26,586 nt of DNA from a virus: the IMG/VR virus record IMGVR_UViG_3300020054_000180, positions 1-26,586 of that record; one strand, written 5' to 3'. The position numbers were made by a program, and so were the translations under genes. This document shows positions 6,977-26,586 of the stretch, piece by piece; within the stretch, counting starts at the first letter, position 1, and each line of letters starts with the position of its first letter. The notes below the pieces were generated by a model. It saw only the letters and a program-made list of their open reading frames with translations. It did not search any database and was not told where the DNA came from.

Positions 6977-7079
6977 GGTTAACGAACTAGTGGATAAGTA
7001 TAATGAGCAAGAAGCGATGGTACAAAGCAAGACCCGTAGTACAAAAGGTAACAAGCGAACAAACGGGACTGACGTATGA
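6873..7079 (+). CDS. Small overlapping hypothetical protein (68 aa, helical)
   Basis: An ORF lying mostly inside two neighbours: its first 104 bases overlap the end of the 5'-3' exonuclease and its last 77 overlap the start of endonuclease I, each in a different frame. I choose ATG 6873 because GGGAGG (6859-6864) precedes it at 8 bases; an upstream ATG at 6834 has no such site. Residues about 10-46 look like a real amphipathic helix (V-P-L-I-L-K-Q-I-V-S-K-V-N-E-L-V-D-K-Y), and the T/K-rich ends look disordered. The overlapped exonuclease tail looks less protein-like. No family recognised. Confidence 0.5.
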   Translation: MTTGTTKDKQTTLEKVDDTVFNRSVPLILKQIVSKVNELVDKYNEQEAMVQSKTRSTKGNKRTNGTDV

Positions 7080-7443
7080 CTCACTGTTAGAGTGTGAACT
7101 ACACGAAGGGGTGCTTAAAGATTTTGATAAGCACCCTTACACTATTGACTACACGGTCTCCCATAAATACCATCCTGACTTCTGTAATGATAAGCTAGTC
7201 ATTGAGTGCAAGGGGTTCTTCCAAGATTCCTCTGAAGCTAGGAAGTATAAAGAGATACGTAAAGAGCTAACTGACAAAGAGTTAGTATTTATATTTGAGA
7301 AGCCTGATACCCCTCTACCTTGGGCTACCAAGCGTAAGGATGGTACTCGAATGACCCACAAAGAGTGGGCTGAGTACAATGGGTTCAGAGCTTATGGCAA
7401 AGATGTAACACTTGAGGAACTAACTAATGTTAACTATGAATGA
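7003..7443 (+). CDS. Endonuclease I (T7 gp3-like Holliday junction resolvase)
   Basis: A PD-(D/E)XK nuclease that cuts branched DNA, resolving replication and recombination intermediates and helping break down host DNA. The 146 residues match T7 gp3 (149 aa). The catalytic set is visible: E30 in S-L-L-E-C-E, then H-P-D59-F and V-I-E68-C-K70. The spacing and the Y-x-P-D-F strand before the E-x-K strand resemble T7 (Y-T-P-D-F, V-E-T-K). The ATG at 7003 has only a weak GTGGAT upstream; its translation may be coupled to the overlapping small ORF. The gene ends 17 bases inside the MazG gene. Confidence 0.88.
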   Translation: MSKKRWYKARPVVQKVTSEQTGLTYDSLLECELHEGVLKDFDKHPYTIDYTVSHKYHPDFCNDKLVIECKGFFQDSSEARKYKEIRKELTDKELVFIFEKPDTPLPWATKRKDGTRMTHKEWAEYNGFRAYGKDVTLEELTNVNYE

Positions 7444-7829: not shown

Positions 7830-8834
7830 ATGACAGACATAACTGTAGAATTAATTGATAACAAACAAGATGATCTAACTGTAGTCAATGCAGCTAGGGT
7901 TAGTTTTGATAAAGAAAGTAAAGAGTTTACCTACCGAGAGGAAGTACCTAAAGGTAGTGATGAGGGGCTAGTAAACTATCTAGCTGCCCATGACCATTGG
8001 ACTCCCTTCTCTCATGTACGAGAAACATTTACTTTACCTGCCAAGTATTTTAGAGGAGGCCTCCTACCAGAGACTTATACAGGTATGGTATGTAAGGTAG
8101 ATGCTGAGTCCAAAAACATGATTAAGGTTAGGCATTCCCTTTGGGGCTGGGCGAAGTTACTTATCTCAAGTAAAGTTGTAGATCCTGCATCCACCCTAAT
8201 TGGCAACATGCTTGTTGATCGTTACCCTGTGTCTGCTAGAGCCTGTGGCCTATTGAGGAAACAAGCACAGCTATCAGCTATTGACGCCAACGTAGCTCTT
8301 GTTACAGAAGACACTGACCCTGACTACGTAGATGTAACTCTCCGAGAGACTGTACCCATCTTCGTAGCTAGGCAACGGTTCAAACACATGGTAGGCTTTA
8401 CTTACAATGAGGTTAGCCGTAGGTATGTAGATGATGCACCCACCTTTTATGTACCTGATACATGGCGTAGTCGTCCCGATGGTAGCGTAAAGCAGGGGAG
8501 TGGTGATGACTTCACCGGCTACTTCTGGACAGAGGAGGAAGCCTGCGTAGACAGGACTTTGGAAGAAGTTTACGAAGGCCATCTAGATGCCTGTTTAGAT
8601 TTTTACACAGAGATGATTGAAAAGGGCATAGCGCCCGAACTGGCTAGGATAGTGTTACCTCAGAGTATGATGACTTCTTACTATGTAACAGGCTCCCTGT
8701 CTGCCTTTGCTCGTATGGTTAAGCAACGTAAAGATCCACATGCTCAGAAGGAGATACAAGATCTAGCTAACAAAGTAGACAATGTAATCTCAGAACTACA
8801 CCCTAACCTTTGGAAAGAATCACTAGGAAATTAG
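7830..8834 (+). CDS. thyX: Flavin-dependent thymidylate synthase, enlarged variant
   Basis: Converts dUMP to dTMP using FAD, NADPH and methylene-tetrahydrofolate, feeding phage DNA synthesis. ThyX features in order: N-A-A-R-V-S-F near 20-26, H-D-H-W-T-P-F-S-H at 54-62, the signature region R181-Q-R-F-K-H-M-V-G-F-T-Y-N-E-V-S-R-R-Y199, and a C-terminal G-I-A-P-E-L-A-R-I-V-L-P-Q-S with H-A-Q-K-E-I near 304-309. The canonical R-H-R-x-x-S is altered to K-H-M-V-G-F-T, while the N-E-x-S-x-R-Y part is intact. The 334 residues exceed the usual 210-260, mainly through about 100 residues (75-172) between the two N-terminal motifs. The ATG at 7830 follows GGGGATAGGA. Confidence 0.9.
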   Translation: MTDITVELIDNKQDDLTVVNAARVSFDKESKEFTYREEVPKGSDEGLVNYLAAHDHWTPFSHVRETFTLPAKYFRGGLLPETYTGMVCKVDAESKNMIKVRHSLWGWAKLLISSKVVDPASTLIGNMLVDRYPVSARACGLLRKQAQLSAIDANVALVTEDTDPDYVDVTLRETVPIFVARQRFKHMVGFTYNEVSRRYVDDAPTFYVPDTWRSRPDGSVKQGSGDDFTGYFWTEEEACVDRTLEEVYEGHLDACLDFYTEMIEKGIAPELARIVLPQSMMTSYYVTGSLSAFARMVKQRKDPHAQKEIQDLANKVDNVISELHPNLWKESLGN

Positions 8835-10363: not shown

Positions 10364-10572
10364 AGCTATTCACCGCTAACTGGTGTATCAACTGTAAATC
10401 AGTAAAGCGTTTGCTAGATGAGAAAGGTATTGAGGTTGACATGGTTGATCTAGATGAGAAGCCAGAGTTAGCACAAGAGGCAGGGGTGAGAAGTATCCCT
10501 GCTCTTCAAGACTCCGAAGGTAACTTACACGTAGGTGTAAGTGCTATCGTAAAAGCAGTAGTAGGTAAGTAA
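10360..10572 (+). CDS. Thioredoxin/glutaredoxin (NrdH-like) redox protein
   Basis: A minimal thioredoxin-fold protein of 70 residues. The redox motif is W-C9-I-N-C12 after a short first strand (K-L-F-T-A-N), and the cis-proline is in S-I46-P47-A-L. The length is that of NrdH or phage glutaredoxins. It lies immediately before nrdB and nrdA, so the likely job is re-reducing the C-terminal cysteine pair of the ribonucleotide reductase large subunit. Supplying a polymerase processivity factor, as thioredoxin does for T7, is a less likely alternative because the polymerase lacks an obvious thioredoxin-binding insertion. The start overlaps the phosphoesterase stop (ATGA). Confidence 0.85.
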   Translation: MKLFTANWCINCKSVKRLLDEKGIEVDMVDLDEKPELAQEAGVRSIPALQDSEGNLHVGVSAIVKAVVGK

Positions 10573-10573
10573 T

Positions 10574-11557
10574 ATGATCCAGTGCAGAACTCCTAAGAAG
10601 ACTCCAACAGTAGACTATCCAGCTATTGTTCAAGCTATTGAAGCACAACAACATATCTTCTGGTTACCAACTGAACCTAAGGTAGAGAAAGATTTACACT
10701 GTATTAAGACTGAGCTAACTCCTGCTGAGTATCATGGAGTTCTCACTACTCTTAAACTGTTTACTCTTTATGAGATCGTAGCAGGCAATGAATACTGGGG
10801 TGGTAAGTTTAAGCGGTTGTTCCCTCGCTATGAGTTCCAAAGATTAGGGGCATGCTACTCTGACGTAGAGCTTAACATCCACTCCCCTTTCTACCAACGA
10901 GTAGATGAACTACTTGGACTTAACACAGATGAGTTCTACTCTTCCTTTACTGATGACCCTATCCTTAAGTCCCGTATGGATTTCTTAGATGAAGCAGTAG
11001 GAAGTGACAATGCTGCTTACTCAGTAGGTGTATTCAGTATGGTAGAAGGAGCTATCCTCTACTCATCCTTTGCTTTCCTTATGCACTTCCAGATGGCAGG
11101 TAAGAACCTACTACCTAACATACATGCTGGTCTAACCTTCAGTGTTAAGGACGAGAACCTACACTCTGAGACTGGTGCTTATGTGTACCGTACTATGGTT
11201 AAGGAGATGCAGGATAACAATGAGTTAACTGACAGTAGCTTACAGAAGCTAGAAGAGAAGTTATACCAAGCAGCCTCTCAGATTAGAGAGCATGAGTATC
11301 GTATCATTGAGATGGTATTCTCTGAAGGTAGTATCAAAGGTATTACTGAAACTCAGATGAAGAACTTTGTAGATAGCCGTATTGATCTATGCCTAGAGAA
11401 CTTAGGTTTGGATAAAGTATACAAGCCTAGCTACAACCCTATCGCTAACTGGTTCTATGATATGATTGGGGGAGATAGACAGCATGACTTCTTCTACACT
11501 ATAGACTCTTCTTATAATCGTAACTGGACTAAATCATCATTTGTTTGGAGTAATTAA
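10574..11557 (+). CDS. nrdB: Class I ribonucleotide reductase small subunit
   Basis: The radical-generating beta subunit, which works with NrdA to make deoxyribonucleotides. The ferritin-like di-metal helices are visible: Y-E67-I-V-A-G-N-E73 (first ligand candidate), V-E99-L-N-I-H103-S-P-F-Y107, M-V-E158-G-A, and K-D-E194-N-L-H197. Y107 sits four residues after the histidine, the position of the radical Tyr122 of E. coli. The first Glu-His pair is spaced E-x-x-x-H rather than the standard E-x-x-H; I recall similar E-L-N-x-H sequences in other phage NrdB proteins. At 327 residues it is slightly short of bacterial NrdB (about 375). It starts one base after the thioredoxin-like gene and overlaps nrdA by one base (TAATG). 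Confidence 0.9.
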   Translation: MIQCRTPKKTPTVDYPAIVQAIEAQQHIFWLPTEPKVEKDLHCIKTELTPAEYHGVLTTLKLFTLYEIVAGNEYWGGKFKRLFPRYEFQRLGACYSDVELNIHSPFYQRVDELLGLNTDEFYSSFTDDPILKSRMDFLDEAVGSDNAAYSVGVFSMVEGAILYSSFAFLMHFQMAGKNLLPNIHAGLTFSVKDENLHSETGAYVYRTMVKEMQDNNELTDSSLQKLEEKLYQAASQIREHEYRIIEMVFSEGSIKGITETQMKNFVDSRIDLCLENLGLDKVYKPSYNPIANWFYDMIGGDRQHDFFYTIDSSYNRNWTKSSFVWSN

Positions 11558-13251
11558 TGAGTGAACTTTTTGAAGAGCTATCACAAGAGCGTAAGGAATT
11601 ACAAGAAAGTGGTAAGCTACCTGCTTGGTTTACAACGATGGGCTGGCAAGCATTCAAGTCGAAGTACCTGTACCAAGCAGAAACCTATGAAGAACAGATA
11701 GACCGTATTGTCGAGACAGTAGCTAAGTATGCACACACTAAGCAAGACTACTTGAAGGTACGATGGAAAGAACTCTTCATGAATAACCACGCTTACTTAG
11801 CTACACCTGTACTAGCTAACACTGGTACAAATAGAGGCATGAGTGTCTCGTGTTCAGGTGGTTACATTGGTGATTCTATCTACGACTTTGGTCAAGCTAG
11901 ACTGGAAGGCTCAGTACTAAGTCAAGAAGGTTTTGGTACTTCTTCTTACTTAGGGGCTATCCGTGAGAGAGGTACACCAATCAGTAGAGGTGGGAAAGCT
12001 AATGGAGTAGAACCAGTCTTTGATGACATGGTGACTATGGCTCAGAAGGTGTCACAAGGTGGTACTCGTAGAGGTGCATGGGCTGGCTACTTACCACTGG
12101 AACATGGTGACTTCTGGGAGACTTCTAACTATGTTAAGAACTTCCCTGATGGTGCTAACGTAGGGTGGAACATCTACGATTCTACTATTGAGAAGTTAGA
12201 AGAGGGAGACTCAGACATAGTAAGTAGGTGGCAAGAAACTCTATACACTAAATGTATCACTGGTAGAGGTTACTACTTCTTCCCTGATAAAGTTAATCGA
12301 GCAGCACCTCAGATGTATAAAGATCATGGGTTAAGCTGTAAGGCTAGTAACCTGTGTACTGAGATTGCTCTACACTCTGATGAAGACCACACCTTCACTT
12401 GTGTAATCTCAGGAATGGTAGCTTCTACTTGGGATGAGTGGAAAGATACAGATGCTGTCTACTGTATGACTATCTTCTTAGACTGCCTAGTGTCTGAGTT
12501 CCTAGTACAAGCCCGTAATGTTAAGGGGTTAGAGAAAGCAGTAAGATGTACAGAGAAGGGTAGAGCTATTGGTCTAGGAGTATCAGGCTTCCATTCTCTA
12601 TTCCAGAAGAAGATGTACCCTTGGTCTTCTATGGAAGCTTACCTTCTGAATGTAGAGATTGCTAAGCACCTACATGATGAGACACTTAAAGCTAGTCAGT
12701 GGATGGCTAGTGAGTGGGGTGAACCAGAGTGGTGTGTAGGGTATGGAGTACGTAACACTCACCGTACTGCTTATGCACCTAATGTTACTAGCTCACTAAT
12801 CTTTGGTAGTGAGAGTCAAGGATGTACACCTTGGTATGGTAACGTGTTCAATGAAGGTGGAGCTGCTGGTGGTATGTTCCGTGTTAACCCTGAGTTTATC
12901 AAGGTACTTAAGAAGCATGGTAAGTATACACCTGAAATCTTAAAGCAAGTACTTAGTGATAACGGTAGTGCTCAAGGGTTAGGCTTCTTGTCTGACTTAG
13001 AGAAGGAAGTATTTAAGACTGCCTTTGAAATTAACCAGCTTGACATACTTAAACTAGCAGCAGCTAGACAGAAGTATACTTGTCAGGCTCAATCTATTAA
13101 CCTGTTCTTTGATGCTGATGAATCTGAAGAGTATATCGCTATGGTACACAAGGAAGCTTTCTTAGATGAGAGTATCCATAGTCTGTACTATATGAGGAGT
13201 AAGGCAGGAGTCCAAGCAAGCAAAGGGGACTGTGAGAACTGTGCATCTTAG
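11557..13251 (+). CDS. nrdA: Class I ribonucleotide reductase large subunit, compact form
   Basis: The catalytic alpha subunit that reduces ribonucleotides. Active-site residues are in place: C99 and C282 (matching E. coli C225/C462), N265-L-C267-T-E269 (the thiyl radical site), the paired tyrosines L-Y544-Y545 of the radical-transfer path, and a C-terminal C559-E-N-C562 re-reduction pair. The phosphate-binding region A-P-N-V-T-S-S-L-I-F-G-S-E is clear. At 564 residues it is about 200 shorter than E. coli NrdA (761). It starts almost directly in the core, so the N-terminal ATP-cone that mediates dATP inhibition is missing. Paired tyrosines and the adjacent nrdB rule out class II. GGAG at 11548-11551 serves the ATG at 11557. 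Confidence 0.93.
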   Translation: MSELFEELSQERKELQESGKLPAWFTTMGWQAFKSKYLYQAETYEEQIDRIVETVAKYAHTKQDYLKVRWKELFMNNHAYLATPVLANTGTNRGMSVSCSGGYIGDSIYDFGQARLEGSVLSQEGFGTSSYLGAIRERGTPISRGGKANGVEPVFDDMVTMAQKVSQGGTRRGAWAGYLPLEHGDFWETSNYVKNFPDGANVGWNIYDSTIEKLEEGDSDIVSRWQETLYTKCITGRGYYFFPDKVNRAAPQMYKDHGLSCKASNLCTEIALHSDEDHTFTCVISGMVASTWDEWKDTDAVYCMTIFLDCLVSEFLVQARNVKGLEKAVRCTEKGRAIGLGVSGFHSLFQKKMYPWSSMEAYLLNVEIAKHLHDETLKASQWMASEWGEPEWCVGYGVRNTHRTAYAPNVTSSLIFGSESQGCTPWYGNVFNEGGAAGGMFRVNPEFIKVLKKHGKYTPEILKQVLSDNGSAQGLGFLSDLEKEVFKTAFEINQLDILKLAAARQKYTCQAQSINLFFDADESEEYIAMVHKEAFLDESIHSLYYMRSKAGVQASKGDCENCAS

Positions 13252-14284: not shown

Positions 14285-17200
14285 TTATAAACCTAGTTCA
14301 TCTCTCCAACCCCTAGCACTAGTTCCTACTGAGGCGAAGGCCATATCAGCTAAGTATTGTGATAGATCCATCTCACCACTGGCTAGCTTAGCTGCATTCT
14401 GAGAAGTAAGTGATACCATATCGCTAGCCATATGAGCACCTACACCGAAGAAGCTACTGTGAGGACTATCCCCATATTCATGTGAGTTAATAGCTTCACC
14501 AAACGCTTGAATAGATCTAGGAGTTACATACCTAAAGATGGAACTCATCACTAATTCTGTAGGATCTCTATCTAACTCTCTTCCACTTACTGCATCTCTT
14601 AAACTTATCTGCATAGAACCTACTAAGGCAATACCACCTAAGATGAATAACCCATCAATAACATCTGAAGGTGCACTCTTAAGCTTGTTACCTAGCAAAG
14701 GAAGAACAGAGTTAGTAAAGATAGTAGGGTAACTCTGTAGTTGGGAGAACAACCATAGGTGTTGGTTACTCATCCACAAAGGTCTATCACTAAAGGTAGG
14801 ACTAGGAGCTACCTTACGGTTGAACTGGTAGATAGCATCAGCCATAGCTTTGTTCTTAACTGCTTGAGGTGCACCAGAGTTAGGAAGTAGAGCATCCCTA
14901 GCTTGACCAACAATACCTAGCTCAGTAAGTCGTTGGTTAGCTCTCATAGCCTCACCACTACCTTGGAACTTAGCATTGTTAACTAGGTCTAGATCTTTAG
15001 TAACTTGTAGCCTAGTTGCTTCTGCTCCTACTTCTCTTACAAAGTGAGTCCAGTAAGATAGACCAGTCATCTTAAAGAAACCCCTAGTTACTTTAGCTGC
15101 CCTAGTTCCAATGTTAGGATCAGCAAGTCTAGCCATCATTAAGCTATCAGCAGTGTTAATAGACTGACCAGCCATACTCATCTGAGTAGCGTTAGTCTGC
15201 CAGCTCTCACTTGGGCCTCTAAGCATAGCTCTACGTACTAGGTTAACACCAGCTCTGTTCATAACACTAAGAGTAGACTGTACCATAGAACTCATATCAG
15301 TTCTCATAGCTACGTTAAAGATCTCAGTAAGAGAACCTAGAGTTACTAGTGGTAATGCTGCCATAGTAGAACCAGTCTTAGCTACAGTAGAGATCTTCCT
15401 AGCAGTAGGGTTCTGGATGGTACGGTAAGTGTTATCGTAAGCATCTACCATGTCATAGAAGGTAGAGACTTCATTAGCAGTTAGGGTAGGGTTACCACTT
15501 CCAGCTAACTCGGCTTGAGTCTCAAGGATTAAACGGTTAAGCTTCTCACCATTCTTACCTAGCATATCAGCACCAGCAATACGATGAGCTACCCCTTCCC
15601 CATAGTCAGCGATAGACTCTAGTGCAAACCTACCTTTGTTCTCTCCTACTGACCACTTGTTATAGAAGTCCTGCCCTACATTCCATCTACGTTGTCCCTC
15701 TAAGTTACCAGAGATGTTACCTACTCTAGTAGAACCTAGCTCTCCTCCTCTTACTTCTCCTCCGGTAACCTTATCTATCATGCTAGCTTCTAGCTTAGTA
15801 AGATCTTCCCCACCTTCTAACTTAGTAATAGCAGAAGTAAGTTTAGAGAAGTCACCAGTCTCTAACTGTTCTACGTATCTATCTACTTGAGCATTAAGAG
15901 TAGCTTCATCAGGAGTTCTACCTCTCTCAGCTAGTTGAGATCTTAGGTCAGACTTAAACTCATCAAGGTTGTTCTTGATATTATCCACATCCATTCTGCT
16001 AGGGATGTAGTCTTCAACTATTCTAGATTCAGGAAGTAGTTTAGCTTTCACACCCCTATCAGCTAGGTTAGCTAAGTGATCTCGTAATGCTTTAGCACTA
16101 CCACTGTCCTTACCTGCTGTGTAATCCTCTACTAGTTTATCTTCCCAACCTTTACCATATTCTTTCTGAGCTTGCTTATATACTTGCTCTCTGTCGTAGT
16201 TAATCTCATTACGTAACTTAGACTGTACACCGGTAAGGTCATCACCTAATGGATCATTAAAGATCCTAACCAAGTCTTGACCAGCAGCAGCTCTTGTAGC
16301 TTTAGGTGCAATAGAAGAAGTAATCTGTCCAGTGAACCAGTCATGAAGTCCACCTAACACCCCTAAGCTTCTCTCCTTCTGGAAAGATTGTGGAGCTTCT
16401 GGCATTACTACATTCTTAAGATTCTTATGCTTAATGTAACCTGAGACTGAACCTAAAGGAGCACCACCTAGTACACCTAATGCAGCAGACTCTTTCATAC
16501 GATTGTAGAAATCATCATAGTCTATATCTACATCAGCAACAGAGTGAGCACCAGCCTCTAGTAAAGCAGTAGAAGTAGTAGCCATACCTGAGCTTAACAC
16601 TGTAGCTTTAGCAGCTTCCTGTGCTACTGATGCTGATACACCACTACTGACTAGACCTTTCTCTAACTCAGCTTGTACCTTATCTGCTCCCTCCTTCTCA
16701 ACCATCTTCTTAACAGTTTCTTTGAAGAAAGGAGAAGCTAGTTTAGAGATACCAACTGTATCCAAAGCAGTAAGACCACCAGCTAATGCTGCTCCACCAG
16801 CTCCTAGTGTAGCTTCCTCACCACCTACTTCCTTGATTCTGGATTGTACAGCACCTACGTTAAGAGGGGCAGACACAGCAGCTACACCCACTCCTGCACC
16901 TACTGGGCCACCTACTAAGAAGCCTGTACCAGCAGCAGTAAGATAAGCAGCAGTGTCAGCTAATAGACTACCAGCACTAGTGGTAGCCCATGACACATAG
17001 TCTCCTAAAGCTTCAGCATCCTTAAACTCAATAGGAGCACCGTACTTAGCTGCCTCTTCTAGATTAGTAATCCTACCTTCTTTACCCCATTCAGCTAGAC
17101 CTTCCCAGTCAGTAGCTTCACCAATAGCTTCAGCAGCAGAGTAAAGGTTAGATTGGAATTGTTCTACTCCTCTACCTACACCTGAACTAAAAGTATTAGG

Positions 17201-17287
17201 GTCTACGGCTCTAGGAGCGAAAGGGTTACCCCCTTGCATACCAGCAAAAGGGTTAGCACTATTAGTGTTTGCAAAAGGGTTAGCCAT
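14285..17287 (-). CDS. Large internal virion / DNA ejection protein (1000 aa)
   Basis: Probably an ejection protein stored in the capsid core and released into the cell envelope with the DNA, as T7 gp15/gp16. Support: large size; position after three other Ala/Gly/Gln-rich internal-type proteins; an N-terminal third with Gly/Ala-rich, membrane-interacting stretches (A-G-T-G-F-L-V-G-G-P-V-G-A-G-V-G-V); and a long, mostly helical remainder. The N-terminus carries three N-P-F-A motifs at residues 3-6, 12-15 and 21-24, in a regular 9-residue repeat. I see no lytic transglycosylase motif like that of T7 gp16. AGGAGTAATGA precedes ATG 17287. Start and end fit tightly between neighbours. Confidence 0.75.
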   Translation of the reverse strand: MANPFANTNSANPFAGMQGGNPFAPRAVDPNTFSSGVGRGVEQFQSNLYSAAEAIGEATDWEGLAEWGKEGRITNLEEAAKYGAPIEFKDAEALGDYVSWATTSAGSLLADTAAYLTAAGTGFLVGGPVGAGVGVAAVSAPLNVGAVQSRIKEVGGEEATLGAGGAALAGGLTALDTVGISKLASPFFKETVKKMVEKEGADKVQAELEKGLVSSGVSASVAQEAAKATVLSSGMATTSTALLEAGAHSVADVDIDYDDFYNRMKESAALGVLGGAPLGSVSGYIKHKNLKNVVMPEAPQSFQKERSLGVLGGLHDWFTGQITSSIAPKATRAAAGQDLVRIFNDPLGDDLTGVQSKLRNEINYDREQVYKQAQKEYGKGWEDKLVEDYTAGKDSGSAKALRDHLANLADRGVKAKLLPESRIVEDYIPSRMDVDNIKNNLDEFKSDLRSQLAERGRTPDEATLNAQVDRYVEQLETGDFSKLTSAITKLEGGEDLTKLEASMIDKVTGGEVRGGELGSTRVGNISGNLEGQRRWNVGQDFYNKWSVGENKGRFALESIADYGEGVAHRIAGADMLGKNGEKLNRLILETQAELAGSGNPTLTANEVSTFYDMVDAYDNTYRTIQNPTARKISTVAKTGSTMAALPLVTLGSLTEIFNVAMRTDMSSMVQSTLSVMNRAGVNLVRRAMLRGPSESWQTNATQMSMAGQSINTADSLMMARLADPNIGTRAAKVTRGFFKMTGLSYWTHFVREVGAEATRLQVTKDLDLVNNAKFQGSGEAMRANQRLTELGIVGQARDALLPNSGAPQAVKNKAMADAIYQFNRKVAPSPTFSDRPLWMSNQHLWLFSQLQSYPTIFTNSVLPLLGNKLKSAPSDVIDGLFILGGIALVGSMQISLRDAVSGRELDRDPTELVMSSIFRYVTPRSIQAFGEAINSHEYGDSPHSSFFGVGAHMASDMVSLTSQNAAKLASGEMDLSQYLADMAFASVGTSARGWRDELGL

Positions 17288-20327: not shown

Positions 20328-20612
20328 TTAAACTATTTTAGTCCAACCAGTGGATTTGTATACATATAAACCTTCTCCTCCTCCTGTAGGGTTCCAACCT
20401 ACACCATCAGCATAAGCTACTAATCCTACAGTAACTCTTTCAGGTGCTTCAGTAAGAGGAGGATACTGATGTTCCAGTGAACTAATAGCTTGAGATACTC
20501 TCTGAAACTCCTCATACATCCAGCGAATGTAAGGACTAATCTCAGGAGTTATCTGCTCACGATTAGGAGGTACAGAAGCTACGTACCTAGTAGAACTAGA
20601 TTGTACTGCCAT
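20328..20612 (-). CDS. Small virion-associated protein (94 aa)
   Basis: I start this gene at ATG 20612, not the GTG three bases earlier, because GGAGG lies 6 bases before the ATG and only 3 before the GTG, and because ATG 20612 overlaps the upstream TGA (TGATG). The N-terminal half is a helical, Pro-flanked segment (I-R-W-M-Y-E-E-F-Q-R-V-S-Q-A-I). The C-terminal half has short strands ending W-N-P-T-G-G-G-E-G-L-Y-V-Y and S-T-G-W-T-K-I, a pattern I recall from small phage structural proteins beside tail genes. It is the last gene before the internal promoter; no terminator is visible after it, so upstream transcripts can continue. Confidence 0.65.
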   Translation of the reverse strand: MAVQSSSTRYVASVPPNREQITPEISPYIRWMYEEFQRVSQAISSLEHQYPPLTEAPERVTVGLVAYADGVGWNPTGGGEGLYVYKSTGWTKIV

Positions 20613-22153
20613 CACTTACCTCCCTCAGTTGTATACTGAATAGTGAAACTCTCAATCAGTGGTAAGGCTGTACCTGAGTTACCACTAAGCCTGAAGCTAA
20701 TGTATCGTCCCTGCCCCCTTAGGTAATGTCTGAACTTACCAACAGAGTACGTAGTAGGAGTCTTCCAGCTTACACCATCACCAGAGTTATACTGACTGCC
20801 TACCCTTACAGAGATAGTTCCTTCACCTGCAATGTTAGGTGTCATACTGTTCAAGTACTTAACCTTGGTCAAATCTCCTAAGGAAGCAGAGAGTTTCTCT
20901 AGTACCCACTCATAGGTTTGTCCATCAAACAAAGAAGAGTTGTCTACTTGATAGACAGCAGTGTCTTCCTTACTAGCCATCACAATAGATGAGTTAGCAG
21001 GAGAGTAAGCATTAGCATCCCAGTGTAATGATCCTAGATCCCATGATACATTCCTACCAGTGTTCCATACTTCATCTTCCTTAGGATCTACAATAGCTGT
21101 AGTAGCGTGTGCCAGATTAGGTAAGTCTCTGGTACTCCATGTGTTGTATACCCAGTTCCAGACAAGAGCAGTGTTACATGAACCATTAACACTGTTGTCA
21201 TCAGGGTAGCAGATCCATATCTCCTTCTCTTCTGGGTTACTTACAGTGAACACATTCTGATAGAAGTCTTGGTTTAAACTACGGAAGAATAGATCCTTAA
21301 CTTTCTTATCAGCAATAGAAGAATCTTGGATACCATCATGAATGTAGATGTCATCAAAGTCTACTACAAAGTGTTTACCTTCAAACTGGCTAACACACTC
21401 TCTGGATAACATTCCTCTATCTTCAAAGATCTTAGCAAAAGAAAAGACATAGATCCCCCCAATGAATTGACAAGAGTAGACAGAATCAGTCTTGTAGATA
21501 ATCAATTGATCTCTAAGCTGAGAAGCATCTACGAGCTCCCCATCTGTATCAGCCAATGCTAGTTGACCAGCTTGAGTAGTAGGATCAGTAACATCCCAAC
21601 TAGGAGGTTCTACACCTACATCAGCCGGATCACTCCACCTTAAACTAAGGGGTAAGGATTGACCAGACTCCTCGATGTTAAGGGCAAACAAGTAGTTCTT
21701 GAAACCCCTGAAAGTTTTAGCTTTGAAGTTAGCTGGTAAGTTAACAGAGTCTTTAAAGTCAGCATCAGCTACTTCTTTGACTTGTAACCTGTCTGACTCG
21801 TTGTTAAAGTATAAGCAACTGTTAAGAGCAGTGCTACTCCATCCAGCATCTACAGCATAGTTACCACCTGATGTACGAGTAACATCCTCCCATAATCCAT
21901 TAGAGTTCTTATAAAGTTTACCACTTCCTGCTACATAGATCTCAGGGGTATCATTCTGGATAAGACCTCTTACATGTTCAGGGTTAACAGGAGGTGGGTC
22001 AAAGACTCTAGAGTGTCCTTGTACAGGAGTAAGTCTCCCTGACTTCAACCTTAAGTTATGGATAGTGGAGAACTGATTATTCTCAAGATCCACAGCAGGG
22101 AGATCAGCTACTAGCCCACCTGATACTGAGATAGGCATATTCAGATAAGCCAT
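20612..22153 (-). CDS. Probable tail nozzle / stabilisation protein, beta-propeller type (513 aa)
   Basis: A 513-residue protein made of repeated short beta strands with Trp/Gly/Asp turns (E-I-Y-V-A-G-S-G-K-L-Y-K; F-V-V-D-F-D-D-I-Y-I-H-D-G; A-L-V-W-N-W-V-Y-N-T-W-S-T-R-D). This resembles beta-propeller tail proteins such as P22 gp10 stabilisation protein and the T7 gp12 nozzle. The opening, with S-V-S-G-G-L-V and later L-R-L-K-S-G-R-L-T-P-V-Q-G, is typical of that class. The C-terminus (R-Y-I-S-F-R-L-S-G-N) looks like a final sandwich domain. It lies between the tail-collar fibre gene and the small 94-aa gene. AAGGAGCTACTT precedes ATG 22153. The family is judged by eye and memory only. Confidence 0.6.
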   Translation of the reverse strand: MAYLNMPISVSGGLVADLPAVDLENNQFSTIHNLRLKSGRLTPVQGHSRVFDPPPVNPEHVRGLIQNDTPEIYVAGSGKLYKNSNGLWEDVTRTSGGNYAVDAGWSSTALNSCLYFNNESDRLQVKEVADADFKDSVNLPANFKAKTFRGFKNYLFALNIEESGQSLPLSLRWSDPADVGVEPPSWDVTDPTTQAGQLALADTDGELVDASQLRDQLIIYKTDSVYSCQFIGGIYVFSFAKIFEDRGMLSRECVSQFEGKHFVVDFDDIYIHDGIQDSSIADKKVKDLFFRSLNQDFYQNVFTVSNPEEKEIWICYPDDNSVNGSCNTALVWNWVYNTWSTRDLPNLAHATTAIVDPKEDEVWNTGRNVSWDLGSLHWDANAYSPANSSIVMASKEDTAVYQVDNSSLFDGQTYEWVLEKLSASLGDLTKVKYLNSMTPNIAGEGTISVRVGSQYNSGDGVSWKTPTTYSVGKFRHYLRGQGRYISFRLSGNSGTALPLIESFTIQYTTEGGK

Positions 22154-22163
22154 AAGTAGCTCC

Positions 22164-22814
22164 TTAAGTTTTCATAATGTAAGCAATAGCATAGTAAGGA
22201 GGGATGTTATCACCACTACCATCGAAGGTAATGTTGTGACTGTGCCCTTGTCCTCCACCTACATAACTAGTCAGTGGTGAATCATCAGATGATACAAGGC
22301 CACTACCTACAATACGGTTAGCAGTAGGGCCAGCAGTAGAAGTCCCATACTTAGTAGCATAAGCATTACAAGAACCACCTTGGTGTTGGTGATTAGGCAT
22401 CTGGTTTACTGTGAGTGTGTGAGACTCAGTAACAGTAGGGTGAGGGATATCAGCACTACCCCCAGTAGTGTTGACGTTATAACTACCACCAGTGTCTCCT
22501 GTAGCGGCTACTATAAATTTACCTCTTAGGTCAGGAGTACCAGCAGTGCCATCACACAATGTCCAACCATCTGGGATATTAGCTACTAACCCAGACCACA
22601 TAGAGATAAGTCCAGTAGGTATGAAGTTAGTAGGATCAGTTGTTAAGTTAAGTTGAGCAGGAGTAGCTGTCACTGCTCCATCAATGTTAGGGAAGGAGTT
22701 GAGCAATGTCTTCTTAATCAGACGTATATGATCATCCCCTTGCCTACGAGTATCAGTTCCAGTAGGGTTAGTTGCTACCAGATCATCAATGTATGTACCT
22801 GACTCTAATGGCAT
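22164..22814 (-). CDS. Tail-collar domain fibre protein (216 aa)
   Basis: A short tail fibre probably contacting the host surface. The N-terminal part (T-N-P-T-G-T-D-T-R-R-Q-G-D-D-H-I-R-L-I-K near 15-34, then F-P-N-I-D-G-A-V) is an attachment segment found in many phage fibres. Residues about 67-110 form a phage tail-collar domain: G-L-I-S-M-W-S-G, I-P-D-G-W-T-L-C-D-G-T, P-D-L-R-G-K-F-I-V-A. The C-terminal part has H-Q-H and H-S-H pairs, as in metal-binding T4 gp12-like tips, and ends N-I-P-P-Y-Y-A-I-A-Y-I-M-K-T, also standard for the family. AAGGAGTAACCT precedes ATG 22814. Confidence 0.88.
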   Translation of the reverse strand: MPLESGTYIDDLVATNPTGTDTRRQGDDHIRLIKKTLLNSFPNIDGAVTATPAQLNLTTDPTNFIPTGLISMWSGLVANIPDGWTLCDGTAGTPDLRGKFIVAATGDTGGSYNVNTTGGSADIPHPTVTESHTLTVNQMPNHQHQGGSCNAYATKYGTSTAGPTANRIVGSGLVSSDDSPLTSYVGGGQGHSHNITFDGSGDNIPPYYAIAYIMKT

Positions 22815-22824
22815 AGGTTACTCC

Positions 22825-22983
22825 TTAGCCTAAGAAAACTTTAGAAGCAGTCTCTACTTCCTTCACAATCTTATCATCAATCTTGGTCTCAGTAAGCTTA
22901 GCTAATTCTTTAAGTACTTTAACAGTAACATTGATTAGTAAACCACGGACTACAGGCATCTTTAGTAAAGTTAGAAAGTTCAT
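22825..22983 (-). CDS. Small protein (52 aa), possibly holin-like
   Basis: An ORF filling the 178-base gap between the collar fibre and the 167-aa gene. It runs from ATG 22983 (TAGGTAA upstream) to TAA at 22825-22827. The sequence has a mildly hydrophobic amphipathic stretch (P-V-V-R-G-L-L-I-N-V-T-V-K-V-L) followed by L-A-K-L-T-E-T-K-I-D-D-K-I-V. The T-x-T-K-x-D-D-x-I-V string recalls the tail of some small phage holins, but 52 residues with one weak hydrophobic segment is short for a holin. Function uncertain; the exact fit between neighbours and the ribosome binding site support a real gene. Confidence 0.6.
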   Translation of the reverse strand: MNFLTLLKMPVVRGLLINVTVKVLKELAKLTETKIDDKIVKEVETASKVFLG

Positions 22984-22992
22984 ATTGGTTAC

Positions 22993-23496
22993 CTATTTAG
23001 GATAGTTAGTTTTAATTGACTGGATAGTGTCAACCCAAGTGGTAGTACCTTCTACCTGATCATGGTATTGCATATCCAGTTGTTCTTCTTTAGAAGGATA
23101 AGCAGCAGCTCTTAGCTTAGAGTAGTTAATCTTCTTCCAAGCTTCTACTGATTCAGGGACATAGATCTTTTCTTCTACAGGTTCAGTTGGTTCAGTAGGA
23201 AGTATAGCATCTGGATCCCCTTTAGCTTCATACTCAGCTAGGGCTAAGTCGTAGTTGTCTTTAGACAGTAGGTATTGGTCGAAGGCTACTAAGTACTCTA
23301 AGTCACTAACCTTTTGTAAGTATTCTTGATAAGTGATAAACTTACTAATGAAAGTATCTACTAGCTCAGATCTCTTACCTTTGTGCTTGTTGATTACAGC
23401 AAAGACAGTAGCTTCAGTTACTACTTCAGGAGCCACTAAGGACTCCTGTTGAGTATCTAAGGAAGTTTCCTGTACAGGGGTTTCCTCAGGTGTCAT
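22993..23496 (-). CDS. Tail-fibre-linked small protein with C-terminal Y-P motif (167 aa)
   Basis: An acidic, Glu/Pro-rich N-terminus and a middle helical region lead to a C-terminal block, R-A-A-A-Y-P-S-K-E-E-Q-L-D-M-Q-Y-H-D followed by W-V-D-T-I-Q-S-I-K-T-N-Y-P-K. This R-x-x-x-Y-P-x-x-x-x-Q-L-D-x-x-Y-H ... I-K-x-x-Y-P block is one I recall from many small phage proteins encoded next to tail fibres. Some are thought to be fibre chaperones or fibre-bound parts; the function is not established. It follows the large tail fibre gene by 11 bases with AGGAGATTTATAA before ATG 23496, so it is co-transcribed with the fibre. Confidence 0.7.
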   Translation of the reverse strand: MTPEETPVQETSLDTQQESLVAPEVVTEATVFAVINKHKGKRSELVDTFISKFITYQEYLQKVSDLEYLVAFDQYLLSKDNYDLALAEYEAKGDPDAILPTEPTEPVEEKIYVPESVEAWKKINYSKLRAAAYPSKEEQLDMQYHDQVEGTTTWVDTIQSIKTNYPK

Positions 23497-23507
23497 TTAT
23501 AAATCTC

Positions 23508-26500
23508 CTATTTAGTGTTTCTAACCCAGCCTAGAGGTTTAGCTCCACGTTGGTTGAACTTAGTAATCGTGTTACCATTAAGGTCAGTACCAGAAGTAAC
23601 ACCATCCACAATATCAATAAGGTTATCATCACCCCATCCGTTGCCGTCCCATGCCATAAAATGAGGAACTCCATTCTCCCATAGAATAAGATCATTATGT
23701 TTCGACCACCTTGGATCACTTAGAGGTACTCCTATAGTGGCGGAACTTATATTTTTCCAATAACCTCGGAATCGTCCATCTGTCACATGATACCAAGTGT
23801 TAATAGTCCACCCTGTGTAAGTTTCTGGCTGATTCTCAAACTCAGTACCATTATCCAACGAGAAATCCCACACCATCTCCTTACCTTTGTAATCAATGAA
23901 CAGTTGTCCGTTGATCTCGGTTAGGGTTGAGAGTGCTTTTAGTGCCGTTGGCTGGGTTGACGGGGGAGAAGGTAAGTTAGTAGCTCCATGCTCAGGATAC
24001 CAACCAACTGCGGCTGGAAATTTCACGGTATCTGGTTGGATTTTATAACTAATTAACGCTTGGTTTTCATACAACGGTGTTTGTGTGCTTCCCTGTAAAA
24101 CCTTACCTATTGTTGATTCAGATAAGATGTTACCTTGTTGTGGTAGCTGTGGCATACCTAACCATACATCACCAATACCCTCATTACCCTTGTAAACCAC
24201 TGCATTATCAGCAGCCTCGGTCAGGTAGGCGTGGGCTGTGTAATCTTGTATAAAGACCACTCCTGTAGAAAGACTGGTAGTATACGCATTTAAGGTTGTA
24301 TTGAACGTTGGAGGGTAAGAAGGGTCACTTGTCCAACTACCTCCATTGTCTGCGGTATATACAGGGTTGTACACTGTACCTACTGTTTTTCTGGTAAATG
24401 AGTAGGTTTGAGAAGTCCCATCAGGAATCACAGGAATCCAATTACCTAACCAACCATTAGCAAGATCAGGTGTTGCAAGGATATTAGCAGGATCACCTAT
24501 GACATCAGTTTGTAGGAACTCTCCTGAGACTTGGTTGTTGGTAGGTGCTGATAAAACTGCGTGGTAACTTTTAGCACTATCTCTAACGTATGTACCATCA
24601 GACACATCCCAACCAACATAAGTATCAGGAGATATACTAGTCACTGTCGCGGCAGTAATTACTATAGCCCCTGCATCTACTACAGATATTGTATCACCAA
24701 GTGATATACCTGTGGTGTCTGGTGTCTGCCATATTGTTGAAGCAGCATTAAAACTTGTAGCGGGTTGTAGCTGTACGGTAGTAAATTCTAACTTCTGCAA
24801 GCCACGCTCTTCACCATTCTTAAAGCGAGCATCCTTCTCACCTAGAGCTTCTTCACGAGTAATACCCCAAGCACTTAACCGTAGGTCATCAACACCACCC
24901 TGACCATCTGCGTAGATAGCATCGTAGTAGCGTCCGTCTGGTCTGCCTGAATTTCCACTTGCAATGAAACCAAACCAATCGACCACCTTACTTGGTACTG
25001 TAGCAGGGGCAATATCGAAACAATCAGCTTTACTAGTGATAGTTGGTGCATCGGTCTTTTCGTACCAATACTTCTTGCCGTTGTAGTCAGACTGCCGCTT
25101 AAAGAAGCTACAACCCATACTGTTAAACGATGGGTGGTACGCTCCTTGGTTGAGTCTACTTACAACACCCAGAACCAAGAAGTAGCATTCACCGTTGACT
25201 GCTATGTTATCGTTTGTTGCACTGACCCTAGCTGCATATACACCTCTATGGTGCTCACCTGTATAGGTTAAGTCTGGATTCTCACTAACGTACCCGTTAA
25301 GGTAATCTACATCTAGACTAGTCACTGTGTCACGAGTGCCTTGTGGCATGACGTAAGCATACGCATCACTGCTCAACGTAGATGTTTTAGCAACATCAGT
25401 ATTTAACCACTTGCCATTACCCGCACCCGCAATAGTACGCTGTCTGATTCTCCGTTGAACCAAACGTCCATCATCTAGGTAATACAGGTTGTTATCTGGG
25501 TCACTCAACATGGCCTTCTGTGCTGACTCGCTGGACATCCAGAAGTTAACCCCTAGACCTTTAGAGGTAGTGTCACCATCAAACACGGCATAGTAGCTGT
25601 CAGGACGGTTAGAATTGCTAGTTGCAATACCATTCATGGTTGCAGCTTGTGATTGGATAAGACCGTTAGGGTAGATGTAAGGATTAGCCAGACTGACTTC
25701 TTCTAAGTATGCTTCTAGACCGAACAAGTCTTCTCGTTCAGCGACTACTTTGTTGGTAGCAGTCTCCGCAGCAAAGGCAGTAGCAGAATCAGCATGTTGG
25801 ACAATAGTACCCGTAGCACTGTCATAGGTGACTGTACCGTCTGGGGCATCAGAGAATTTGAACTTGTTAGGAGTTGAAGTAGATGAACTATTGATACCAT
25901 CCAGTACTGTTAGTACACCAGCCATGTTTACAACAGGTCGCTCAGTTTTAGAATCACCTATAGCAGAAGCACCTGCTCTTCCCAAAAAGACTTGTTGTAC
26001 ATCAGTAGAGTTAGTCCACATACCTTCGTTGACAACTCCCAATACATCCCCGCTCTCAGCTAAATGCTTACCAAAATGAACCATGCCAGAAGCAGCATAC
26101 TGTTCATTGTTCTGCTTACGGTTAGCTTCAAACACTAGCCCTGATCCAGCCTTAACAGCCAGAGCAGCAGTCAAATCAGTTTGGTCAGTTAGTGTACCAC
26201 CAATACCTCCCCACTCTAATCCTACAGCAGCACTAGCCTTAGCAGCCCAATGTTTAGCAGAGTACTTACCTGTCTCTACTTGTACATCTTCGTCTTCTTC
26301 AGCCCATTGTTCAGCTTTATTCTCAGAAGCAAGAGATTCAGCAGCACTTGTAGCACTTGCACTGGCAGAGTTAGCACTATCAGTAGCACTTACACCAGCA
26401 TTGATAGCTGATTGTTGTGCAGTACTAGAAGCTTGTTCAGCAGAGATACGTGCAGTCTCCGCTTGATCAGCAGATAGTTGAGCAGCACTAGCAGAGTTAC

Positions 26501-26586
26501 TAGCACTAGCAGCATCAGCCATAGCACTTGAAGCACTAGTAGCAGCATTAGATTCAGATTGAGCAGCAGCAGTCTCACTAGCTTCA
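23508..26586 (-). CDS. Large tail fibre / receptor-binding protein (partial, 5' end beyond window)
   Basis: The frame stays open from the right edge (no stop or start signal between 26523 and 26586), so the ATG at 26522 is an internal methionine and the gene is truncated by the window. At least 1025 residues are visible. The first 90 or so are an Ala/Ser/Thr/Gln/Glu-rich trimeric coiled-coil shaft, typical of T7-like fibres. A central domain contains D-S-Y-Y-A-V-F-D-G-D and V-Q-R-R-I-R-Q-R-T-I-A-G-A-G-N-G-K-W, which I recall from vibriophage fibres. The last third is beta-rich with many Trp/Gly repeats and ends P-L-G-W-V-R-N-T-K. The C-terminal part differs in base composition from the rest of the window, suggesting exchange of the receptor-binding tip. 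Confidence 0.85.
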   Translation of the reverse strand, partial: EASETAAAQSESNAATSASSAMADAASASNSASAAQLSADQAETARISAEQASSTAQQSAINAGVSATDSANSASASATSAAESLASENKAEQWAEEDEDVQVETGKYSAKHWAAKASAAVGLEWGGIGGTLTDQTDLTAALAVKAGSGLVFEANRKQNNEQYAASGMVHFGKHLAESGDVLGVVNEGMWTNSTDVQQVFLGRAGASAIGDSKTERPVVNMAGVLTVLDGINSSSTSTPNKFKFSDAPDGTVTYDSATGTIVQHADSATAFAAETATNKVVAEREDLFGLEAYLEEVSLANPYIYPNGLIQSQAATMNGIATSNSNRPDSYYAVFDGDTTSKGLGVNFWMSSESAQKAMLSDPDNNLYYLDDGRLVQRRIRQRTIAGAGNGKWLNTDVAKTSTLSSDAYAYVMPQGTRDTVTSLDVDYLNGYVSENPDLTYTGEHHRGVYAARVSATNDNIAVNGECYFLVLGVVSRLNQGAYHPSFNSMGCSFFKRQSDYNGKKYWYEKTDAPTITSKADCFDIAPATVPSKVVDWFGFIASGNSGRPDGRYYDAIYADGQGGVDDLRLSAWGITREEALGEKDARFKNGEERGLQKLEFTTVQLQPATSFNAASTIWQTPDTTGISLGDTISVVDAGAIVITAATVTSISPDTYVGWDVSDGTYVRDSAKSYHAVLSAPTNNQVSGEFLQTDVIGDPANILATPDLANGWLGNWIPVIPDGTSQTYSFTRKTVGTVYNPVYTADNGGSWTSDPSYPPTFNTTLNAYTTSLSTGVVFIQDYTAHAYLTEAADNAVVYKGNEGIGDVWLGMPQLPQQGNILSESTIGKVLQGSTQTPLYENQALISYKIQPDTVKFPAAVGWYPEHGATNLPSPPSTQPTALKALSTLTEINGQLFIDYKGKEMVWDFSLDNGTEFENQPETYTGWTINTWYHVTDGRFRGYWKNISSATIGVPLSDPRWSKHNDLILWENGVPHFMAWDGNGWGDDNLIDIVDGVTSGTDLNGNTITKFNQRGAKPLGWVRNTK

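Follow-up and report, generated by a model that had tools for sequence, protein, structure and literature searches.

The window, by which we mean the whole stretch of 26,586 bases analysed here, belongs to a phage that carries a PolA polymerase, a primase/helicase and ThyX. Its polymerase and structural genes resemble those of Pseudomonas LUZ24/tf-like phages, and the structural genes also resemble those of KIT05/VPp1-like Vibrio phages; from these relatives we infer a podovirus, and its host is probably a Vibrio. A nucleotide search of positions 1-25,000 against public phages returned only matches of 80-90% identity, in 36 records. The 20 matches listed were 113-128 bases long and all lay in a gene of the ribonucleotide reductase type, a presumptive name taken from the annotation of phage Ceto under the match. 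Among these listed matches, positions 12239-12366 share about 81-82% identity with Vibrio phage Ceto and its relatives.

At one end of the window lies a tail-fibre gene, followed by a gene for a 167-aa protein (Table 1). In the near-identical locus L002 the fibre has 1,058 aa. Its aa 251-1001 match PHROG 14489 (unknown function), and two tail-fibre PHROGs, 13980 and 19294, match within aa 7-100; the protein has no Pfam match at E 0.001, and a search of solved structures found no convincing relative (best E 0.023). The tail-fibre matches at the N-terminus and the position of the gene suggest that the protein binds a receptor. The PHROG matched by the 167-aa protein is of unknown function, and its position makes it a possible partner in fibre assembly.

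Table 1. Features of the fibre locus and of the structural gene used for comparison.
Feature	Position in window	Strand	Remarks
Tail-fibre gene, 5' end cut by window edge	23508..26586	-	1,025 codons open
Exchangeable fibre body, aa about 132-1004, presumably receptor-binding	23508..26129	-	homology and foreign composition
Phage-typical Ala/Ser-rich fibre N-terminal part, presumed tail anchor/stalk	26130..26586	-	composition
CTAG-free stretch, fibre ORF codons 630-996 (numbered from ATG at 26,522)	23534..24637	-	0 CTAG
167-aa protein downstream of fibre	22993..23496	-	PHROG 9114, E 2.4e-14, aa 115-167
1,000-aa virion structural protein gene, contains 15,001-16,100	14285..17287	-	PHROG 6958; 40 CTAG

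The initial annotation had described CTAG as very frequent in this phage and absent from part of the fibre gene. Exact counts bore out both numbers, as there were 18 sites in 15,001-16,100 and none in 23,534-24,637. The sites bounding the empty stretch start at 23,531 and 24,637, and no other spacing in the window is as long as these 1,106 bases; the next are 971 (22,267-23,238) and 799 bases (10,450-11,249). The distribution is uneven elsewhere too, with 2-15 sites per 1-kb bin, and the tail genes that neighbour the fibre (20,328-22,814) have a density of 4.0 per kb. The whole window holds 214 CTAG versus 99.2 expected from base composition, a 2.16-fold excess; a trinucleotide (maximal-order Markov) model predicts 236 (observed/expected 0.91).

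The frequency of CTAG is explained by codon usage and by the context at codon junctions. In the 27 genes covered by our codon nulls, CTAG occurs in only two phases, CTA-G (107) and NCT-AG (93), because the third would place a TAG stop in frame. When synonymous codons were drawn at their genome-wide frequency (plain codon null), 155.6 ± 10.5 CTAG were expected in these genes versus 200 seen, while a null that kept amino acids, codon usage and junction context (context null) gave 193.5 ± 11.0. The surplus over the plain null is thus due to junction context. After NNA codons, G was found 1,166 times (857 expected) and A 298 times (604 expected), and after NNT codons, A was found 1,188 times (962 expected) and T 354 times (572 expected); KIT05 and VPp1 show this junction bias in a milder form. 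G comes next after 49% of CTA codons, and because this share resembles those of GTA (55%), TTA (51%), TCA (57%) and GGA (52%), CTAG itself is not favoured. Its abundance, which had been considered odd in its own right, is therefore no separate phenomenon: codon usage and junction context account for the 200 sites, and CTAG departed from neither the codon-plus-context nor the trinucleotide null as a selected or depleted functional word would. The structural gene that contains 15,001-16,100 is slightly high compared with the context null (31.4 ± 4.2, P = 0.027), and its own trinucleotides predict 44.8 sites. ARAGORN detected no tRNA, and hence no tRNA-Leu to account for CTA, either in the window or in loci L001-L004. 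The rarity of CTAG in proteobacterial genomes, against which the abundance had been set, is not a relevant comparison, since the rarity in enterics is attributed to very short patch repair (PMC5591236) and the density varies among phages (1.2 to 7.1 per kb across the 10 public phage regions measured). The depletion in enterobacteria runs in the opposite direction, and CTAG in the window follows trinucleotide frequencies.

CTAG is one symptom of a broader signature, because other four-base palindromes in the window are skewed too. The enrichment of AGCT exceeds that of CTAG (267 versus 99 expected), GTAC is found 153 times (99 expected), and CCGG, CGCG and GCGC hardly occur (4, 2 and 2 versus 54 expected each). 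The dinucleotide odds of the window are 0.28 for CpG and 1.48 for AG/CT, with similar values in the replication half (0.30 and 1.48), the internal virion genes (0.20 and 1.61) and the tail and collar genes (0.16 and 1.44). In the 26 non-fibre genes, the observed/expected ratio of CpG is low in all three codon phases (0.48, 0.10 and 0.26).

The fibre gene departs from this signature. Its codon-likelihood z of -7.8 is the lowest among the 27 genes, followed by that of the ThyX gene (7,830-8,834; z -5.4); an endonuclease gene at 7,003-7,443 has z -3.9. Because these two genes are atypical too, atypical codons alone are not sufficient proof of transfer. The shift lies within the fibre gene: aa 1-100 have a codon z of +2.7, and the N-terminal region at 25,901-26,586 has CpG odds of 0.20, AG/CT of 1.62 and 11.7 CTAG per kb, versus CpG odds of 0.56 and AG/CT of 1.11 in the fibre body (23,508-26,129), and 0.47 and 0.98 in the CTAG-free stretch. 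It extends to CpG at codon junctions, where the observed/expected ratio is 0.56 in the fibre gene versus 0.26 in the other genes. Windows of 100 codons have z of -1.6 to -6.9 in the CTAG-free part, and those at 25,173-25,622, with 3 CTAG each, are strongly atypical as well (z -5.9 and -4.6). As this CTAG-bearing segment is comparably atypical, the gap in CTAG is not the boundary of the module. A codon model trained on seven homologous fibres versus the phage's other genes found aa 331-928 (25,532-23,739) to be the best-scoring foreign segment. The boundary is soft, with the codon segment beginning near aa 331 and homology, for most hits, near aa 132; weak Ala/Ser-rich matches to phages D63 and PG07 begin at aa 20-22. 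The suggestion that the loss of CTAG marks DNA of different origin is thus upheld in part: the composition is foreign and the module is shared with other phages, but the module is larger than the gap. The contrast in CpG and AG/CT traces the foreign body better than CTAG does.

How unexpected the gap is depends on the null. In joined-gene simulations, which exclude intergenic DNA, a CTAG-free run of at least 1,106 bases anywhere had P = 0.19 under genome-wide codon usage and P = 0.048 once junction context was added. For 23,534-24,637 itself, genome-wide codons predict 4.3 CTAG (P = 0.006 for zero) and the context null predicts 5.4 (zero in 0 of 1,000 simulations). The stretch's own codons predict about 2.6-2.75 (P = 0.04-0.05) and its own trinucleotides 2.15 (Poisson P about 0.12), so that the gap is unusual against the typical coding DNA of the phage but only mildly unexpected given the composition of the stretch itself. 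Elsewhere in the module (24,638-26,129) there are 9 CTAG, and the trinucleotides of that part predict 9.4. The stretch may still have a slight deficit beyond what these models explain, because the context null is borderline and zero sites have a probability of 0.04-0.05 under its own codons. Synonymous choice in the stretch differs from that of the phage in the shares of GTA (0.17 versus 0.55), GCT (0.32 versus 0.69), ACT (0.33 versus 0.58) and AAA (0.69 versus 0.37), and Leu-[GAVDE] pairs number 1.4 per 100 aa, versus 3.5 in other genes. A constraint against CTAG at the protein level was ruled out, as all eight homologous fibre C-termini compared contain the word (4, 2, 4, 2, 1, 2, 7 and 5 sites); these are 8 of 309 matching records, picked from among the higher-ranking ones, and four of the eight (D63, V6Aob, henriette 12B8 and RYC) align there only partly.

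Comparison of the fibre C-terminus with other phages, a check that the initial annotation had proposed, found homologs in Vibrio phages. Of 50,697 phage records, 309 contain a match to the fibre protein, in every case below 60% identity; 308 of them are named for Vibrio and one for Pseudoalteromonas. Of the 40 tblastn hits listed, 38 begin at aa 131-138 and two at aa 258. Matches to the body occur in KIT05, PG07 (Demerecviridae), RYC (158 kb) and henriette 12B8, and the eight matching records that we compared (KIT05, V07, PG07, D63, V6Aob, henriette 12B8, 230E39-1 and RYC) differ in gene set and size. The fibre combines a phage-specific N-terminal part with a body common to otherwise different phages, as a module does.

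The body also differs between close relatives at this locus, because in KIT05 and VPp1 the particle, tail-fibre/collar and constituent proteins beside the fibre are 96.6%, 76.6% and 98.2% identical, whereas the fibre alignment is confined to aa 1-119 (79%). Such alike flanks with different bodies were found in one compared pair, KIT05/VPp1. Between the window and KIT05, the fibres are 38% identical over 914 columns, and the 513-aa, 233-aa and 1,000-aa structural proteins 27-31%. This contrast in rate between the fibre and its neighbours is weakened by the 216-aa collar protein, which at 38.5% is as similar to KIT05 as the fibre is. We found no fibre swap within the phage's own population, where identity to the window is 99.8-99.9% in both sibling contigs that cover the fibre (L002/L010 and L003/L009). 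Across six sibling loci, which come from four contigs, identity to the window is 99.7-99.9%; the polymerase search turned up three further near-identical contigs (L098, L101 and L102).

We consider it very probable that the CTAG pattern results from a phage-wide codon and dinucleotide signature together with a fibre body that came from another Vibrio phage and has been partly ameliorated. The signature would consist of avoidance of CpG, preference for AG/CT and TA, for NCT and GTA/CTA codons, and for A followed by G and T followed by A at codon boundaries, with CTAG as a by-product. The fibre body (about aa 132-1004) may be a receptor-binding module that was recombined in from another Vibrio phage and replaced an earlier receptor-binding part downstream of the phage-specific anchor. 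It would lack the phage signature because it was acquired and has been ameliorated only in part; its CpG odds of 0.56 lie between the 0.28 of the phage and the 0.64-1.08 of the homolog regions, as would be expected if it were drifting to the phage signature. The 1.1-kb gap would then be where, within the module, no CTAG is left through the combined effect of atypical codons, a lower number of Leu-[GAVDE] pairs and chance. The transfer event in this phage is what we infer from these observations.

A native fibre body could also give such a picture, if it were less translationally optimised or free of codon selection and its signature had decayed in place without transfer. The atypical codons of ThyX and of the gene at 7,003-7,443 speak for this explanation, but the shift takes place inside one gene, with a typical N-terminal part and an atypical body, and includes CpG at codon junctions. 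Moreover, dissimilar Vibrio phages carry relatives of the body, and KIT05 and VPp1 differ from each other in the homologous body, so that decay in place seems unlikely. It is less probable still, and in our view very unlikely, that the fibre is not foreign and that its gap arose from chance and amino-acid composition, Leu-[GAVDE] pairs being scarce. The scarcity of these pairs in the stretch and the P of 0.19 for such a run anywhere under the codon null are in its favour; however, synonymous choice differs (GTA, GCT, AAA), which amino-acid composition cannot explain. Amino-acid composition alone had been named initially as a finding that would overturn the idea of foreign DNA, and the statistics restricted to synonymous codons differ, so this did not hold. 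The least credible explanation, which we regard as extremely improbable, is that CTAG was selected as a functional motif (e.g. a regulatory, packaging or modification site) and lost in the fibre. The 2.16-fold excess over base composition and the 200 sites versus 155.6 ± 10.5 under the plain codon null would suit it, but the excess vanishes when codon-junction context is modelled, AGCT is more enriched, and the genic sites are divided between two codon phases.

We tentatively suggest, as a possibility that we rate as rather doubtful, that a phage-specific pressure acts against CpG itself and that the acquired body, at 0.56, serves as a clock of amelioration towards it. Such pressure could come from a context-dependent bias of the phage replication machinery or from a CpG-sensing host defence. 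Decay of CpG driven by methylation is disfavoured because the accompanying gain in CA/TG is nearly absent (odds of 1.07 in the window). Avoidance of GC-rich restriction sites containing CG is unlikely, as CG is lowest relative to GC between A/T bases (156 WCGW versus 755 WGCW; 23 SCGS versus 36 SGCS). No direct precedent for a CpG bias in a tailed phage was found in the listed titles and abstract openings of papers on CpG bias, PMC3308326 among them. In a set of 104 pieces of 8 kb or more, this phage and its siblings account for the 11 lowest CpG values (0.25-0.34, with 0.28 for the window); the next-lowest is 0.37, and the median, those 11 included, is 0.68. The set is neither random nor independent, as it contains relatives of two phage enzymes and fibre homologs, and includes several overlapping pieces from a single contig. 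Among IMG/VR contigs whose PolA is related, several have CpG of 0.37-0.5, and others are near 0.7-0.8 (L103, L104). The CpG of this phage therefore looks like the end of a continuum. In the eight Vibrio phage regions that carry fibre homologs, CpG is 0.64-1.08. The strong avoidance of CpG is the only mildly unusual part of the case.

Overall, the fibre represents ordinary receptor-module mosaicism, which is established in phage evolution. It recalls the exchanged tail-fibre module for host recognition in Alteromonas phages A5/V22 (PMC10579305) and the domain shuffling of phage receptor-binding proteins (PMC10684548) in that a body common to phages of different families is joined to a phage-specific N-terminus, and in that closely related phages have near-identical N-termini with unrelated C-terminal parts. 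A possible difference is that the 167-aa downstream protein, a putative assembly partner with a phage-typical composition (CpG odds 0.12, measured for 22,815-23,507), does not look as if it moved with the body. The KIT05 fibre (KIT05_12, AP019417) occupies the same tail-gene position and is 38% identical over aa 135-1002, but its N-terminal part has no match to the window fibre, and in KIT05 CTAG is near expectation (0.9-fold) and the CpG odds are 0.65. A contrast in a single word such as CTAG can reflect dinucleotide and codon-junction biases in a phage, and the fibre module is an example, well within established phage biology, of Vibrio phages of different kinds sharing parts for host recognition.

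Two further observations concern the fibre relatives. The C-terminal 118 or so fibre residues (23508-23864) align in KIT05, V07, PG07 and 230E39-1; the alignment ends at aa 886 in V6Aob, D63 and RYC, and in henriette 12B8 it resumes only at aa 956-1002. This uneven C-terminal alignment hints that the fibre tip is another exchange unit, nested within the first. The homologous region L006 (MT135025.1, 331,680-349,331) belongs to the record of Vibrio phage V07, which is 349 kb long and classed as Schizotequatrovirus. The end of this record holds the fibre and its neighbours with the same gene lengths as in KIT05 (708, 849 and 2,097 bases), and the record is possibly a chimeric assembly.
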